DNA of 64,000 nucleotides from Bryobacterales bacterium. Lineage in GTDB: Bacteria; Acidobacteriota; Terriglobia; Bryobacterales; UBA6623. This document shows, piece after piece, positions 10,609 through 63,598 of this stretch. Below the pieces are notes generated by a model. That model saw only the letters and a list, made by a program, of their open reading frames with translations, had not been told where the DNA came from and did not search any database. A program made the position numbers and the translations under genes. The stretch is taken from assembly GCA_028819575.1 (NCBI GenBank), contig JAPPLB010000096.1:1-64000 (forward strand). The letters run 5' to 3'. The stretch's first letter is position 1. Every line of letters begins with the position of its first letter.

Positions 10609-10788
10609 AGCCTGCATTTCTCGCCACGTGGCGAGGGGAAGTGCATGAGAGGGCCGTCAGGACGAGGCGCGCGCCGCTTGGCGCGCGCAGGTGTACTTGA
10701 CCGTACATCGAGCACGGCAAGCAAGCGCAACGAAGTCATGGCGGTCGTATCGTGTGCTTCGACCGTCGGGTGGTGAGAAATGCGGGCT
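10609..10788 (+). repeat. Dispersed palindromic repeat, copy B, inside the TRAP operon
   Basis: This full copy is 180 bp. The left arm AGCCTGCATTTCTCGCCAC pairs with the right arm GTGGTGAGAAATGCGGGCT, with G-U type wobbles. Inside are a perfect stem GCGCGCGCC/GGCGCGCGC around a GCTT loop (10667-10688) and a stem TGTAC/GTACA (10692-10707). The ATG of dctQ (10780) lies inside the right arm. It sits between dctP and dctQ in transcription direction. Confidence 0.92.
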
Positions 10789-33310: not shown

Positions 33311-33493
33311 TAGCCTGCCTTTCTCACCACGTGGCGAGGCGAAGTGCGTGAGAGGGCCATCAGGACGAGGCGCGAGCCGCTTGGCGCGCGCAGGCGTACT
33401 TGAACCGTACGTTGAGCACGGCAAGCAAGCGCAACGAAGTCCTGGCGGTCGTACCGCGTGCTTCGACCGTCGGGTGGTGAGAAATGCAGGCTA
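33311..33493 (+). repeat. Dispersed palindromic repeat, copy C (best-preserved ends)
   Basis: This full copy is 183 bp, beginning TAGCCTGCCTTTCTCACCAC and ending GTGGTGAGAAATGCAGGCTA. Both ends carry TA next to the inverted repeats. Internal stems are GCGCGAGCC/GGCGCGCGC (one mismatch), CGTAC/GTACG and GCGGT/ACCGC. It lies between divergent queC and the VWFA gene. Confidence 0.93.
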
Positions 33494-38656: not shown

Positions 38657-38839
38657 TATCCTGCATGTCTCACCACGTGGCGAGGCGAAGTGGGTGAGAG
38701 GGTTGCCAGGAAGAGGCGCGAGCCGCTTGGCGCGCGCAGGCGTACTTGAACAGTACGTTGAGCACGGCAAGCAAGCGCAACGAAGTCCTGGCGGTCGTAT
38801 CGCGTGCTTCGACCGGCGGGTGGTAAGACATGCAGGCTT
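38657..38839 (+). repeat. Dispersed palindromic repeat, copy D
   Basis: This full copy is about 183 bp. The left arm CCTGCATGTCTCACC and right arm GGTAAGACATGCAGG carry a paired T-to-G and A-to-C change relative to the other copies, which keeps the stem. Internal stems CGTAC/GTACG and GCGGT/ATCGC are present. It lies between the cysteine desulfurase and chorismate-lyase-like genes, both on the plus strand. Confidence 0.92.
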
Positions 38840-49851: not shown

Positions 49852-49920
49852 TAGCCTGCCTTTCACACCATGCGGCGAGGTGGAGTGCGTGAGAGGGCTG
49901 CCAGGACGAGGCGCGAGCCG
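49852..49920 (+). repeat. Dispersed repeat, copy G, left half only
   Basis: TAGCCTGCCTTTCACACCAT and the core GTGAGAGGGCTGCCAGGACGAGGCGCGAGCC match the left half of the full repeats. At 49921 the similarity stops and the heptamer-bearing sequence begins. It lies in the divergent gap between the deacylase and the second cytochrome operon. Confidence 0.88.
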
Positions 49921-54010: not shown

Positions 54011-55513
54011 ATGAAACAGCCTTCCGTCTCCGCCGCATGCAACTGTCGGCGCGCTCCACGCCGCGCGTTCCTGGCCGACCTCGGCATGGGCTTCACCGGC
54101 CTCGCCCTCGGCGCCATGCTGCACCGTGACGGCATCGTACGCGCCGCTACCCACGAGCCTGCTGTGTGGACGCCGCCCGACGGCCTCCCGCACTTTGCCC
54201 CGAAGGCCAAGAGTGTCATCTGGCTCTTCATGCAGGGCGGCACCAGTCATCTCGAAAGTTTCGACCCCAAGCCCGAGTTGAATAAATACGCCGGCAAGAC
54301 CATTGACGACACTCCGCATGCCGGCGTCCTCGAGTCTGAGAACCTCAATGACAACGTCGTAGAGTTCACCGCCGCCACCCGCAAGATGATGAAGAAGATC
54401 TTCCCCATGCAGGTCGGGTTCAAAAAGCGCGGCCAAAGCGGCATCGAAGTCAGCGACTGGTGGCCGCACCTGGGTGACGTGATCGACGACATCGCCGTTA
54501 TCCGCTCGATGTGGACAACCGACAACGACCATGCGGCCCAGCTTCAGTTCCACACCGGCCGGCACATCTTCCAGGGGTACTTCCCGTCAATCGGCTCCTG
54601 GGTGCACTACGGGCTCGGCACCTTGAACGAGAACTTGCCGCAGTTCGTTGTCCTCGGCGGAGGAGTCCCGCCGCAACTGGGCGGCCCTGCGGCCGTAGGA
54701 GGCGACTACCTTGGCCCCGAGCACAACGGTGTCACGCTGAATGTCGATCCTGACGACCCGTTGCCCTTCGGGCGCCCCGGGGACGTCTACCGTGAGGAGC
54801 AGGCCGCCGAATTCGAGCTCCTCCGGAAACTCAACCACATGGAGGGCGTGCAATACCCTGACGATCCGGCTCTCAAGGCTCGCATCAAGTCTTACGAGAT
54901 GGCCTTCCGGATGCAGGCGTCGGTCCCCGAACTCTTCGAGTTCTCGGAAGAATCGGCGGCAACGCGCAAACTCTACGGCATCGGTGAGAAGCCAACCGAC
55001 TACTGGGGGCAGATCCTGCTCACGTCCCGCCGCTTGGTCGAACGCGGCTGCCGCTTCGTGCAGTGCTTCCACGGCTATCACGATACCGGCGGCGGCGGAT
55101 GGGATGCTCACCAGGACCTGAAAGAGAACCATTCCAGGAATTCGCGTCAAGCCGACAAGCCTATCGCTGGCCTCTTGAAGGACCTCAAGTCACGCGGCCT
55201 TCTCGATGAGACTCTCGTGGTCTGGGGAACCGAATTCGGCCGCACCCCCGGTGTCGAGGGCGAACGCGAAGGACGCGACCACCACCCCTTCGGCTTCTCC
55301 TGCTGGATGGCCGGAGGCGGCATCAAAGGCGGCGTCGTCAACGGCGCCACCGATGAGCTCGGTTTCCACGCCGCGCAAGACCGGCACTATGTAACGGACA
55401 TCCACGCCACCGCACTGCATCAACTGGGCCTCGACCCCAAAAGACTGGATGTCCCCGGCCAACAGCGCCTCGCGATCGACTACGGCAACCCCATCGAAGC
55501 CATCATCGCTTAG
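54011..55513 (+). CDS. DUF1501 family protein (Tat-exported)
   Basis: This 500-residue sulfatase-fold protein has a twin-arginine-like signal (RRAPRRAFLADLGMGFTGLAL) and GGAG upstream. Typical motifs are KSVIWLFMQGGTSHLESFDPK, YFPSIGSWVHYGLG, RGCRFVQCFHGYHDTGGGGWDAHQD, WGTEFGRTPG and GRDHHPFGFSCWMAGGG. It is the partner of the multi-haem protein just upstream. Its TAG stop is also the first base triplet of the miniature repeat F. Function is unknown. Confidence 0.92.
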   Translation: MKQPSVSAACNCRRAPRRAFLADLGMGFTGLALGAMLHRDGIVRAATHEPAVWTPPDGLPHFAPKAKSVIWLFMQGGTSHLESFDPKPELNKYAGKTIDDTPHAGVLESENLNDNVVEFTAATRKMMKKIFPMQVGFKKRGQSGIEVSDWWPHLGDVIDDIAVIRSMWTTDNDHAAQLQFHTGRHIFQGYFPSIGSWVHYGLGTLNENLPQFVVLGGGVPPQLGGPAAVGGDYLGPEHNGVTLNVDPDDPLPFGRPGDVYREEQAAEFELLRKLNHMEGVQYPDDPALKARIKSYEMAFRMQASVPELFEFSEESAATRKLYGIGEKPTDYWGQILLTSRRLVERGCRFVQCFHGYHDTGGGGWDAHQDLKENHSRNSRQADKPIAGLLKDLKSRGLLDETLVVWGTEFGRTPGVEGEREGRDHHPFGFSCWMAGGGIKGGVVNGATDELGFHAAQDRHYVTDIHATALHQLGLDPKRLDVPGQQRLAIDYGNPIEAIIA

Positions 55514-55555
55514 CCTGCATGTCTCACCTCGTCGGGTGGTGAGAATTGCAGGCTA
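55511..55555 (+). repeat. Miniature form of dispersed repeat, copy F (45 bp)
   Basis: TAGCCTGCATGTCTCACC is joined after CTCGTCG to GGTGAGAATTGCAGGCTA, so both terminal arms are kept and about 140 bp of the interior is missing. The arms pair with two mismatches. It begins at the DUF1501 stop codon and lies before the convergent MFS gene. Confidence 0.9.
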
Positions 55556-57935: not shown

Positions 57936-59843
57936 GTGTCAGTGGAGCGATTGTTCTTTCGACCGGCCCTTGGTTGCCGGATGGTGTTGTTTGTGGCCTT
58001 TGCCGGTCTGATGCCGGCGGTCGATACCGCTGCGGATCCATACGCACTGACCCATGCCCGAGAGTTCCTGAGCAACTACTGCCAGGCGTGTCATCAGGGA
58101 GAATCGGCGGAGGCCCGGTTCCGCGTCGACAGCCTCGATACGATCGAGTCGTTTCGGACAAGTTCCGACCGTTGGACGCGGCTTGCAGCGCGTGTCTCGA
58201 ACAACGAGATGCCTCCGAGAGGAGCACCGCTTCCGAACCTCGACGAGCGCGAGTCGTTTCTCGATTGGGTGGAGTCGACCTGGAGGAGTCAGGCTTGCGC
58301 TGCCGACCTGCCCCCGCTGCCGAGCTTGATCCGGCGCTTGAACCGGCACGAATATGCGGCTACGGTGCGCGACCTGTTCGATTTGCAGCTTGACTTCGGC
58401 ACGGAGCTTCCGCTGGACGGCCCGGGAGGCGAGGGTTTTGACAACGCGGCGGAAACGTTGTTTCTCTCACCGTTGCACTCGGAGAAATACGTCGAGATCG
58501 CAAAGTCGGTGCTTGACGCAGCGTCGAAGGAATACAAGTCGCGCATCAAGATTTTCGTTGCCGAGCCCGGCCCGGGAATCGGGGAGAAGGAAGCGGCCGA
58601 GAAGATCCTTCAGGCTTTTCTACCGAGGGCGTTCCGGCGGCCGGTGGACCTCGAAACCGTGGACAGGTACGTCGATCTCTTTCGTGCGGCGCGCAAGCAG
58701 GGGCATGACTTCGAGCCGGCGATCCTTTTTGCTCTGCGCAGCGTGCTGGTCTCGCCGCGGTTTCTTTTTCACGTCGAGTCGGTGGGCCACGATCCGGAAC
58801 TGCGGCAATACGAGCTTGCTTCGAAATTTTCCTACTTCCTCTGGGGCAGCATGCCGGACGAATTTCTGTTCGATGTGGCGGCGGCGGGGAAGATGGACGA
58901 TCCGAACGTGCTGCGGCAACTCGTGCCGCGCATGCTGCGCGACCCGCGAGCGCTGGAGTTTGCCGACCGGTTCGTCGAGCAATGGCTGCGAACGCGTGAG
59001 CTGGAGGGTGCGCATGGCCCCGACCCCGAACTGTTCCCCGAATACGCGACCAACGAGGAACTGCATTCGGATATCCTGTTGCAGCCGGTTTACTTCTTTC
59101 AATACGTTTTGCGCGAGAACCTGTCGCTTCTGAACTTCCTCGATTCGGAACACACGATTCTGACGTTGGCTTTGGCGAAGCATTTTGCGGTCGAGCCGGA
59201 ACACAAGCCAACGAAGAATCCCGAGTGGATACGTTTGCCGGAGGGCTCGCATCGGGGCGGATTGGTGAGCATGCCGGCGGTGCTGGCGGTGTCGTCGCAT
59301 CCGTACCGGACGAGCGCGGTATTGCGGGGGGCTTGGATTCTGGACTCGATCTTGGGCACGCCCCCGCCGCCCCCTCCTCCTGCTGTGCCGGAACTGGATG
59401 ACGAGCAAGAGAGTGATACGCCGAAGTCGATAAGAGAGCTGTTGGCGCAGCACAGCGCTAACTCCGCGTGTTCGAGTTGCCACCAGCGGATCGACCCGTG
59501 GGGGTTCCCCCTCGAGAACTATGATGTGGTGGGACGCTGGCGGGAAGAGGATGCAGGCGGGCCGATTGACGCATCGAGCGAGCTGGCGGGCGGAACGAGG
59601 ATCGAAGGTCCGGCGGAGCTGAAGCAGGAGCTGTTCGACCGTTCGGAACTCTTTATTCGCAACCTGACGAAGAGAATGTTGGGGTATGCTATTGGTCGCG
59701 GCCTGACCCCGGCGGACGCCTGTACGGTGGAGACGATCGTTGATCGCGTGCGGGAAGCCGATGATCAAGCCTGGGTGCTGGTCCGGGAGATTGTGCTGAG
59801 CGCGCCGTTCCTGGAGCCCGCCGAAGCGGAGGAGCAACGATGA
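57936..59843 (+). CDS. DUF1592/DUF1588-family exported cytochrome-like protein
   Basis: This 635-residue protein has a GTG start near the promoter; an ATG at 57981 is an alternative with a cleaner signal peptide. It carries the layout of planctomycete/acidobacterial PSD-type proteins: PSCyt3-like N-terminus with CxxCH (C49-C52-H53), DUF1587/DUF1592-like core (FRRPVDLETVDRYVDLF, SVLVSPRFLFHVE) and DUF1588 with CSSCHQRIDPWGFPLENYD (C512-C515-H516). It ends in DUF1585-like KRMLGYAIGRGL. The stop overlaps the next start by ATGA. Probable exported electron carrier of unknown partner. Confidence 0.9.
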   Translation: MSVERLFFRPALGCRMVLFVAFAGLMPAVDTAADPYALTHAREFLSNYCQACHQGESAEARFRVDSLDTIESFRTSSDRWTRLAARVSNNEMPPRGAPLPNLDERESFLDWVESTWRSQACAADLPPLPSLIRRLNRHEYAATVRDLFDLQLDFGTELPLDGPGGEGFDNAAETLFLSPLHSEKYVEIAKSVLDAASKEYKSRIKIFVAEPGPGIGEKEAAEKILQAFLPRAFRRPVDLETVDRYVDLFRAARKQGHDFEPAILFALRSVLVSPRFLFHVESVGHDPELRQYELASKFSYFLWGSMPDEFLFDVAAAGKMDDPNVLRQLVPRMLRDPRALEFADRFVEQWLRTRELEGAHGPDPELFPEYATNEELHSDILLQPVYFFQYVLRENLSLLNFLDSEHTILTLALAKHFAVEPEHKPTKNPEWIRLPEGSHRGGLVSMPAVLAVSSHPYRTSAVLRGAWILDSILGTPPPPPPPAVPELDDEQESDTPKSIRELLAQHSANSACSSCHQRIDPWGFPLENYDVVGRWREEDAGGPIDASSELAGGTRIEGPAELKQELFDRSELFIRNLTKRMLGYAIGRGLTPADACTVETIVDRVREADDQAWVLVREIVLSAPFLEPAEAEEQR

Positions 59844-61186
59844 ACCTGATCCGCACCAAGCCGATCTCACGCCGCACACTACTGCGCGGAGCGGGAGCCG
59901 CTGTCGGCCTGCCGTGGCTGGAGGCGATGACGCCGGCGGTTGGAAGGGCGGCGACGCTGAAGAACCCGGTGCGGATGGCGGCGCTCTACATGCCGAACGG
60001 GGCATTTCCGCTGACCTGGACTCCCGAGTGCCCCGGACGTGACTACGAGTTGACTCCGTCCCTCGAACCGATCGCCGACCTGAAACGCGAAGTAGTCGTG
60101 CTGACTAACCTGTGGAACGAGCAGGCGAAGGCAGGCGACGCGCATTACACCAAAGAAGCAGCGATTCTGACTTCCGCGCAGATCAAGAAGACACAGGGCG
60201 CGGATATCCGCAACGGCATTTCGGTGGACCAGGTGGCGGCCAGGCGAGCCGGTCACTCGACGCCTTTGCCGTCGCTGGAGCTCGGCATCACGCCCGTTGC
60301 GGTCGGCAATGACGTCGCGGTCGGATATACGAGGGTCTACGGCTCGCACATTTCCTGGAGCAGTCCGACAACGCCGCTGGCGCGCGAGTTGAATCCGAAG
60401 GCTGTGTATGAGCGGCTGTTCCGGGCCGCCCATGGCTCGGGAACCGACGAGGCCCGGCTGGATTCGCTGCTGCTGGATCGCGTTCTTGGCGACGCCAGGC
60501 GTCTGCGTCGACGGGTGGGCAAGGAAGACCAAGCGCGGCTCGACGAGTACCTGTCCGTCATGCGTTCGCTGGAGAAGCGGCTGAAGCGAGCGGACGATCC
60601 CGGACGCGACTCCTGGGAACCACGCGCGCCGATCGATCTCGAAGCGGCTCCGACGGACCGGCCGTCGAGTCACCTCGAGCATGTTCGCCTGATGCTCGAC
60701 ATGATTGCGCTCGCTTTCCAGACGGACACGACGCGCATCACTACGTTCATGTTCGGGAATGCGGTCAGCGAGGTGAGCTTCCGGTTTCTCGACGGCGTCG
60801 AATCCGGCCATCACGACCTCTCGCATCACGCGAATGAAGAGGTCAAGTTGAGCCAGTACAAGATCATCAATCGCTGGCATGTTGAGCAGTACGCTTACCT
60901 GCTGCGCCGTCTGGCCGCGATGCGAGAGGGCGAATCGAGCGTACTCGACAACTCGATGATTCTGTTCGCCTCGGCGTTGAGCGACGGTCACAAGCATGAT
61001 CCGCACAAGCTGCCGGTCCTGCTCGGCGGCCGTGGAGGCGGACGGATCGATACTGGCCGGCACCTGGTCTACGGGAACGATCACCCGTTGTCGAATCTCT
61101 ATGTTTCGATGCTTGACGCTTTCGGGACGCCGGTGGAGCGGTTTGCGGACAGCACGGGACCGCTGGCGGGGTTGCTGCATACCTAG
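59840..61186 (+). CDS. DUF1552 family protein (Tat-exported)
   Basis: This 448-residue protein has a Tat signal (ISRRTLLRGAGAAVGLPWLEAM). It is a DUF1552 member, the usual partner of DUF1592 proteins and a relative of DUF1501. Motifs are ALYMPNGAFPLTW, SVDQVAARRAG, DEYLSVMRSLEKRL, DTTRITTFMFGN, HHDLSHHAN and SDGHKHDPHKLPVLLGG. Function is unknown. It overlaps the upstream stop by four bases. Its TAG stop forms the first three bases of repeat copy E. Confidence 0.92.
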   Translation: MNLIRTKPISRRTLLRGAGAAVGLPWLEAMTPAVGRAATLKNPVRMAALYMPNGAFPLTWTPECPGRDYELTPSLEPIADLKREVVVLTNLWNEQAKAGDAHYTKEAAILTSAQIKKTQGADIRNGISVDQVAARRAGHSTPLPSLELGITPVAVGNDVAVGYTRVYGSHISWSSPTTPLARELNPKAVYERLFRAAHGSGTDEARLDSLLLDRVLGDARRLRRRVGKEDQARLDEYLSVMRSLEKRLKRADDPGRDSWEPRAPIDLEAAPTDRPSSHLEHVRLMLDMIALAFQTDTTRITTFMFGNAVSEVSFRFLDGVESGHHDLSHHANEEVKLSQYKIINRWHVEQYAYLLRRLAAMREGESSVLDNSMILFASALSDGHKHDPHKLPVLLGGRGGGRIDTGRHLVYGNDHPLSNLYVSMLDAFGTPVERFADSTGPLAGLLHT

Positions 61187-61364
61187 CCTGCATTTCTCGC
61201 CACGCGGCGAGGTGAAGTGCGTGAGAGGGCCGTCAGGACGAGGCGTGCGCCGCTTGGCGCGCGCAGGCGTACTTGACGGTACGTCGAGCACGGCGAGCAA
61301 GCGCAACGAAGTCATGGTGGTCATATCGCGTGCTTCAACCGTCGGGTGGTGAGAAAGGCAGGCT
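61184..61364 (+). repeat. Dispersed palindromic repeat, copy E
   Basis: This full copy is 181 bp, from TAGCCTGCATTTCTCGCCAC to GTGGTGAGAAAGGCAGGCT. Internal stems are GCGTGCGCC/GGCGCGCGC (one G-U) and CGTAC/GTACG. Its first three bases are the stop codon of the DUF1552 gene. It lies 50 bp before the next gene. Confidence 0.93.
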
Positions 61365-62710: not shown

Positions 62711-63598
62711 ATGGCTGCCGCGCCGGTCGAGGAGTTTCTTTTCTATTGCCGCAGCGAGAAGGGGCTTGCCGGGAATACCCTTGCAGCCTACCGGCGGGAT
62801 CTGGAGAAGCTCTCGGCCTTCTGCAAGAAGCGCGAGCGGGAGGTGCTCCACGCGGGGACAGACGAGCTGCGCGGCTTCGTGGATTCGCTCTACCGGGCGA
62901 GGTTGACGAGCCGCTCGATCGCCCGGCATATCGCGAGCGTTCGGAATTTCTACAAGTATTTTCTGAGCCGTGGACGCATCGAAGAAGACCCGGCGGCGGA
63001 CATCGGCTCGCCGAAACAGTGGAAACGCTTGCCGAAATACCTGACCTTGGACGAAGTCGACCGCCTGCTCGATGTGCCCGATCACACCAAACCGCTGGGA
63101 CTGCGGGATCGGGCGATGTTGCAGTTGCTCTACGCGACAGGGCTGAGGGTTTCCGAACTGGTGTCGGTGGAGCAGCGTAGCCTGAACGCCGAGATGGGTT
63201 TCCTGCGGTTGACCGGCAAGGGCGGCAAGCAGCGGCTCGTTCCGATTGGCCGGGAGGCCCTGGAAGCAATTGAAACGTATGTGCAGGACGGCCGGCCGAA
63301 GATTCTCAAGGGCAAGGCCTCGCGGTTCCTGTTTGTCAGCTCGCGGGCCGGCCGCATCACGCGGCAGAACTTTTGGATCCGGCTGAAACATTACGGGCTG
63401 GAAGCGCGGATCACAAGTCCGTTGACGCCGCACGTACTGCGCCACAGTTTCGCTACCCACTTGTTGGAGGGCGGGGCGGACCTGCGCAGCGTTCAGATGA
63501 TGTTGGGTCACTCGGATATCTCGACGACGGAGATCTATACGCACATCCTTCGGGAGCGGTTACGGAAGGTGTACGATCAGCATCACCCGCGGAGTTAG
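62711..63598 (+). CDS. xerD: Site-specific tyrosine recombinase XerD
   Basis: This 295-residue recombinase has the SAM-like N-terminal domain (residues about 1-90) and a complete catalytic set: R146 (TGLRVSEL), K170 (TGKGGKQR), H241-x2-R244 (HVLRHSFATH), H267 (LGHSDI) and nucleophile Y276 (TEIYTH). Length and motifs match chromosome-dimer-resolution XerD acting at dif with XerC. No att site or cargo surrounds it, so it is not an integrase of a mobile element. It starts 123 bp after the divergent gene. Confidence 0.92.
   Translation: MAAAPVEEFLFYCRSEKGLAGNTLAAYRRDLEKLSAFCKKREREVLHAGTDELRGFVDSLYRARLTSRSIARHIASVRNFYKYFLSRGRIEEDPAADIGSPKQWKRLPKYLTLDEVDRLLDVPDHTKPLGLRDRAMLQLLYATGLRVSELVSVEQRSLNAEMGFLRLTGKGGKQRLVPIGREALEAIETYVQDGRPKILKGKASRFLFVSSRAGRITRQNFWIRLKHYGLEARITSPLTPHVLRHSFATHLLEGGADLRSVQMMLGHSDISTTEIYTHILRERLRKVYDQHHPRS

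Follow-up and report, generated by a model that had tools for sequence, protein, structure and literature searches.

The stretch of DNA analyzed in this study (the window) comprises 64,000 nucleotides, positions 1–64000 of contig C168 of G000, a 5.4-Mb Bryobacterales draft MAG that is 98.7% complete. It carries several copies of a palindromic repeat of about 180 bp with terminal inverted repeats (TIRs), and the full copy at 33314–33490 raises the question of what kind of element this is, what brought it there, and what its long hairpin is for. An earlier note on this DNA had proposed a non-autonomous MITE moved in the TA-targeting manner of IS630/Tc1. As set out below, the repeat is probably a non-autonomous MITE that is mobilized in trans by an IS1380-family transposase encoded elsewhere in the genome.

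Copies in the window and in the genome

The element proper is 177 bp long (CCTGCATTTCTCACC...GGTGAGAAATGCAGG) and has TIRs of 15 to 16 bp; its ends are given here without the flanking duplication. In addition to copy C (33314–33490, 177 bp), which is flanked by CTAG on the left and CTAT on the right, full elements lie on the plus strand, as copy C does, at 10611–10786 (copy A, 176 bp, within TRAP-transporter genes, DctP/DctQ), 38660–38836 (copy D, 177 bp), and 61187–61362 (copy F, 176 bp, flanks CTAG and CTGG). Covariance model R1 scores copies C, A, D, and F at 168, 174, 166, and 168 bits, respectively, on the plus strand and at only 34 to 43 bits on the minus strand. The earlier note had located all four, with about 3 bases of flank included at either end, and had placed all copies between genes, which holds for those of the window; TA at both ends, which it had assigned to copies C and F, is correct for C, whereas F keeps it on the left only. 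The cut copy that it had placed at the window start is matched by R1 at 1–74 on the minus strand, and it is incomplete because the window begins at base 1 of the contig, i.e., at an assembly break. Two lesser copies were also found, a 39-bp mini-element at 55514–55552, which consists of two TIRs back to back and has no strand, and a half copy at approximately 49852–49915 on the plus strand, which retains the left end and the inner stem only (a weak R1 match, E = 0.27) and has a longer counterpart in the congener G002. The end motif is found 12 times in the window, compared with 0 in 100 shuffles. Similar mini-elements of 34–39 bp, likewise consisting of two abutting ends, are present on contigs C19, C122, and C175 of G000.

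The repeat had been taken for a dispersed family, and hundreds of copies indeed exist in the genome: the 15-bp end motif has 849 matches on both strands of the whole draft, compared with 1 for the reversed control. On whole contigs totaling 456 kb, 50 places are recognizable, 27 of which are full length. The number of full copies in G000 ranges from about 300 (extrapolated from the 456 kb) to about 430 (from the end-motif count), both of which are lower bounds owing to assembly collapse. Many G000 contigs, including that of the window, start or stop inside a copy; copies are therefore under-counted, and the repeat is probably a main cause of the fragmentation of this draft, which helps explain why such drafts break up into many contigs. 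No match to the repeat was found in plasmid and phage records.

Insertion sites and the 4-bp target duplication

The repeat is mobile, as is evident from comparison with G002, a genome of the same genus in which contig C20 aligns with the window at about 94–95%. For copies A, C, and F, clean empty sites are present in G002, that of copy C with a 4-bp overlap. The mini-element has the empty site TTAG in G002, and it was either inserted at its present size or shrank after insertion. Over the stretches of the two genomes that were compared, 27 copies have an empty site in the other genome, and only two copies, old and off-size (236 and 111 bp), are at shared sites; relatives thus carry the empty alleles that the earlier note had proposed to look for, and no full-length copy was found at a site common to both congeners. 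In the intergenic gap of copy D, G002 also has a copy, which lies at a different insertion point; a shared ancestral copy is therefore rejected, and the two are independent insertions. The consensus sequences of the G000 and G002 copies are 1.7% apart, and the median divergence of copies from their consensus is 4.0% in G000, where the sample is partly biased towards copies near the query, and 6.5% in G002. The near-identity of the two consensus sequences, from which copies radiate in each genome, indicates that amplification continued separately after the split.

At 22 of the 27 empty sites, comparison of the filled with the empty allele gives an overlap of exactly 4 bp. The flanks of 122 full copies show YTAR on each side and nothing beyond those 4 positions, with TA as the most conserved pair. 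The overlap and the YTAR flanks together rule out a 2-bp TA duplication. Variants of 201 bp are also inserted with a 4-bp duplication. The same 4-mer is present on both sides of 29 of the 122 copies (CTAG in 19, CTAA in 5, TTAG in 3, and TTAA in 2), compared with a mean of 14.9 and a maximum of 25 identical pairs under random re-pairing. In G000, flank equality is below the prediction from drift, even among young-looking copies: flanks are equal in 19 of 59 copies that are less than 4.5% from the consensus, where drift would leave 74–90% equal. Because intergenic divergence between G000 and G002 is 11–17% per site, the true age of some insertions may exceed their apparent age, e.g., if gene conversion homogenizes the bodies of the copies.

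Unequal flanks are observed in most copies of G000 and G002, near-consensus ones included, in which CTAG is paired with TCAG, CTGG, or CTAT. Unlike these, the IS1380 copies described below have equal flanks in all pairs read, and elements in other genera mostly have matched flanks (CTAG/CTAG or TTAG/TTAG). The unequal flanks had suggested that the 4 bp next to the old site travel with the element when it moves, as the overhang of piggyBac could allow, but this idea was dropped: close copies do not have common flanks, mismatches cluster at certain positions, and flanks are mostly equal in the IS copies and in the relatives elsewhere.

The forms of YTAR (CTAG, CTAA, TTAG, and TTAA) often include a TAG or TAA stop codon, and an insertion there would restore the stop codon and hence be harmless, so that the target would turn stop codons into safe landing sites. 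When genes were called with a home-made codon-usage caller, 35 of 112 full copies were flush with a stop codon, compared with 14–18% of non-coding YTAR sites, an excess of about twofold over chance. The left-flank CTAG of copy F holds the stop codon of the gene at 59840–61186, and the mini-element directly abuts the stop codon (TTAG) of the gene at 54086–55513; in both cases, the stop codon is already present in the empty allele. Only 3 of 115 full copies were called inside a gene, and 33–41% of the YTAR sites outside elements are coding. Target choice and purifying selection are enough to explain most of this placement at stop codons and between genes.

The candidate transposase

The earlier note had seen no transposase in the window, in agreement with a Pfam scan of 50 window proteins, which found only a tyrosine recombinase. 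A gene for a XerC/XerD-like tyrosine recombinase lies at 62711–63598, near copy F; no link between it and the repeat was found. Elsewhere, G000 contains two intact IS1380-family elements (L142 and L165; PF13701, NF033539) that are 97% alike and score 385 bits with NF033539, for which the cut-off is 180. Their ends read CC[CT]GCATTTCTCACCAG...CTGGTGAGATATCCGGG, and their duplications are CTAA/CTAA and CTAG/CTAG. The left end of L165 is identical to the end of the repeat over 16 of 16 bases, and the other IS end matches at 12 of 15, which provides the transposase with matching ends that the earlier note had recommended seeking. The likeness is limited to the ends; the interior of the repeat has nothing in common with IS1380, and the repeat is therefore not an internal deletion of it. 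The same correspondence is found in G217, a genome of another family (f3), in which the IS1380 ends match the local element at 14 of 14 bases (CCCGCATTTCTCAC) with CTAG flanks.

In the proposed mechanism, an IS1380-family transposase encoded at another place in the genome would bind the terminal repeats (CCTGCATTTCTCACC...) and insert the element at YTAR sites with duplication of 4 bp. The empty sites, the polymorphism between congeners, and the autonomous IS with matching ends all sustain the earlier reading of a non-autonomous MITE; that IS1380 does the moving is made probable by the ends and target that the two share. Only broken IS1380 copies were found in G002. No IS1380 gene was found in the fragmented drafts of three element-bearing genomes (G237, G206, and G088), and IS1380 fragments without matching ends were seen in other fragmented drafts, including G254. 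The single-contig genome G008, of the same family as G000, has 34 IS1380 matches and no 177-bp element, which shows that the IS spreads well without it. Elements L070 (in G025) and L065 (in G049) have similar ends and YTAR flanks around different interiors of about 175 and 565 bp, respectively, and may represent further MITE families that the same transposases serve.

Two other modes of movement were weighed against mobilization by IS1380. Tc1/IS630-type movement, which the earlier note had suggested and in which TA would be targeted and 2 bp duplicated, would fit the prominence of TA in the flanks, but the alleles overlap by 4 bp rather than 2, the flanks TTAA, CTAA, and TTAG occur on both sides of copies, and the IS with matching ends belongs to the IS1380 family; this mode is very improbable. 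Even less credence is given to a REP/REPIN-type palindrome moved by a Y1 (RAYT) transposase: although the very high copy number, the intergenic placement, and the palindromic form recall such elements, the PF01797 gene is absent from this 98.7% complete genome (0 matches in G000 in a search that detected the control families), a target duplication is present, and the element is 177 bp in size with long TIRs.

Mobilization of a small element by a resident IS has a parallel in RUP of Streptococcus pneumoniae, which is 107 bp long and moved by IS630-Spn1 (PMC2229807). RUP is likewise a gene-less intergenic element whose TIRs match a resident IS and which is present in about a hundred or more copies; it differs in depending on IS630 and TA, whereas in the present repeat the ends are of the IS1380 type, the target is YTAR, and length and fold stay constant throughout a phylum. 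The eukaryotic relative of IS1380 is piggyBac, the trees of which take IS1380 as the outgroup (PMC10813416), and piggyBac likewise targets a 4-bp site, TTAA (PMC7351741). With this repeat, IS1380 would join the IS families that are likely to drive MITEs. A search of open-access papers yielded neither an IS1380-driven MITE family nor any report of the present repeat.

The conserved fold and its distribution

Within the order, the consensus search found the repeat in 27 of 257 genomes (20 genera), and R1 likewise has matches in 27 of the 257. Across the phylum, R1 matches 52 of 396 sampled Acidobacteriota genomes, in 36 of 211 genera; these matches are mostly full length (about 173–178 nt), there are often many per genome, and at least two genomes have hundreds of copies. 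Full elements from nine other genomes are mostly 175–178 bp long and mostly flanked by YTAR, and their ends vary in step on both sides.

The hairpin is more stable than its shuffles, with z-scores of −8.1 on the plus strand and −5.6 on the minus strand. An almost gap-free alignment was obtained for 19 diverged sequences that are about 56–95% identical. Conservation is higher in the interior (columns 51–130, a core of about 80 nt) than in the surrounding stem, and identity between genera falls from 0.80 for the core to 0.76 for the TIRs and 0.53 for the mid stem. Compensatory changes are observed in 32 of 57 pairs, and 92.8% of the cells are paired, compared with 81.0% (SD = 0.6) in shuffled alignments and 25–45% in slid controls; in the inner stem helix, 90% of the cells pair. 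Every measure of covariation exceeds those of all 500 shuffles and of the slid controls. The RNAalifold energy of the alignment is −78.1 kcal/mol on the plus strand and −48.9 on the minus strand, compared with −8.2 (SD = 3.0) for column shuffles. No matching Rfam family was found (the best sub-threshold hit scored 18.6 bits against 124), and an Rfam scan of the window returned tRNA only. A protein-coding core was also considered and is unsupported, as related consensus sequences differ by 1-nt indels.

Individual copies decay freely after insertion, down to remnants of 34–39 bp. Together with the inserted 201-bp variants, this decay indicates that exact length and copy structure are not needed for mere presence, and it is therefore probably the spreading lineage that is under constraint. 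In such a scheme, propagating copies would keep a length of about 177 nt, the long covarying hairpin, and the conserved core, and single copies would decay once inserted. The fold would then matter to the spread of the element itself or to its tolerance, most likely as RNA. We therefore put forward, tentatively, the wider reading of a phylum-wide mobile family that is built around a conserved 177-nt folded RNA and moved by an IS1380-type transposase, and in which the fold and invariant core of the transcript would serve either the spread of the element or the host and would have been kept across Acidobacteriota for that service.

Long palindromes are prone to templated correction, and it is possible that the stems are kept by copying from arm to arm (quasi-palindrome correction) or are required solely at the DNA level, in which case the covariation is silent on RNA. 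The ratio of G-T to A-C pairs is compatible with this possibility, being about equal in the TIR stem and 26 to 17 by genus in the inner stem, which is not significant; for this reason, a strand-specific (RNA) constraint on the fold is only suggestive. On the other hand, internal loops and mismatches keep their positions from genus to genus, conservation of the core extends to unpaired positions, and the plus strand folds better than the minus strand in all 7 genera, even when only the stem is considered, in line with the difference between −78 and −49 for the alignment; these observations speak against that possibility. It is unlikely that single copies serve the host, e.g., as 3' mRNA stabilizers or terminators, and are kept for that service. 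About 30% of the copies lie directly next to stop codons, roughly double the expected share, and MITE transcripts affect mRNA stability in other bacteria (PMC2229807, PMC3733652), but no full-length copy is at a site shared by the two congeners, copies decay freely, and their orientation relative to the abutted gene has no clear bias (11 sense and 15 antisense).

As a rule, bacterial MITEs retain nothing but their ends and do not extend beyond close relatives. The present repeat retains its length, fold, and core in many families of one phylum even as its stem sequence drifts, which makes it a testable case of a gene-less element selected for its folded interior. ERIC and NEMIS/Correia elements are similar in that they are 100–200 bp long, have TIRs and many copies, and form a long stem-loop when transcribed (PMC2229807, PMC3733652); they differ in having TA-type ends, other host lineages, and a mobilizing IS that is different or unknown, and no sequence similarity to the present repeat has been shown. 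The CIR repeats of Caulobacter and Brucella are also intergenic and have an RNA fold conserved across genera (PMC2229807), but they consist of two arms with a GANTC motif and no clear TIRs, whereas the present repeat forms a single long hairpin, has TIRs, and duplicates 4 bp of its target.

Clusters of two or three neighboring copies are present in G000 on contigs C147 (7623–8535), C51 (42784–43259), and C114 (18700–19204). Some copies are about 200 bp long, and the extra stretch of about 24 bp in them could fold into a small hairpin of its own.
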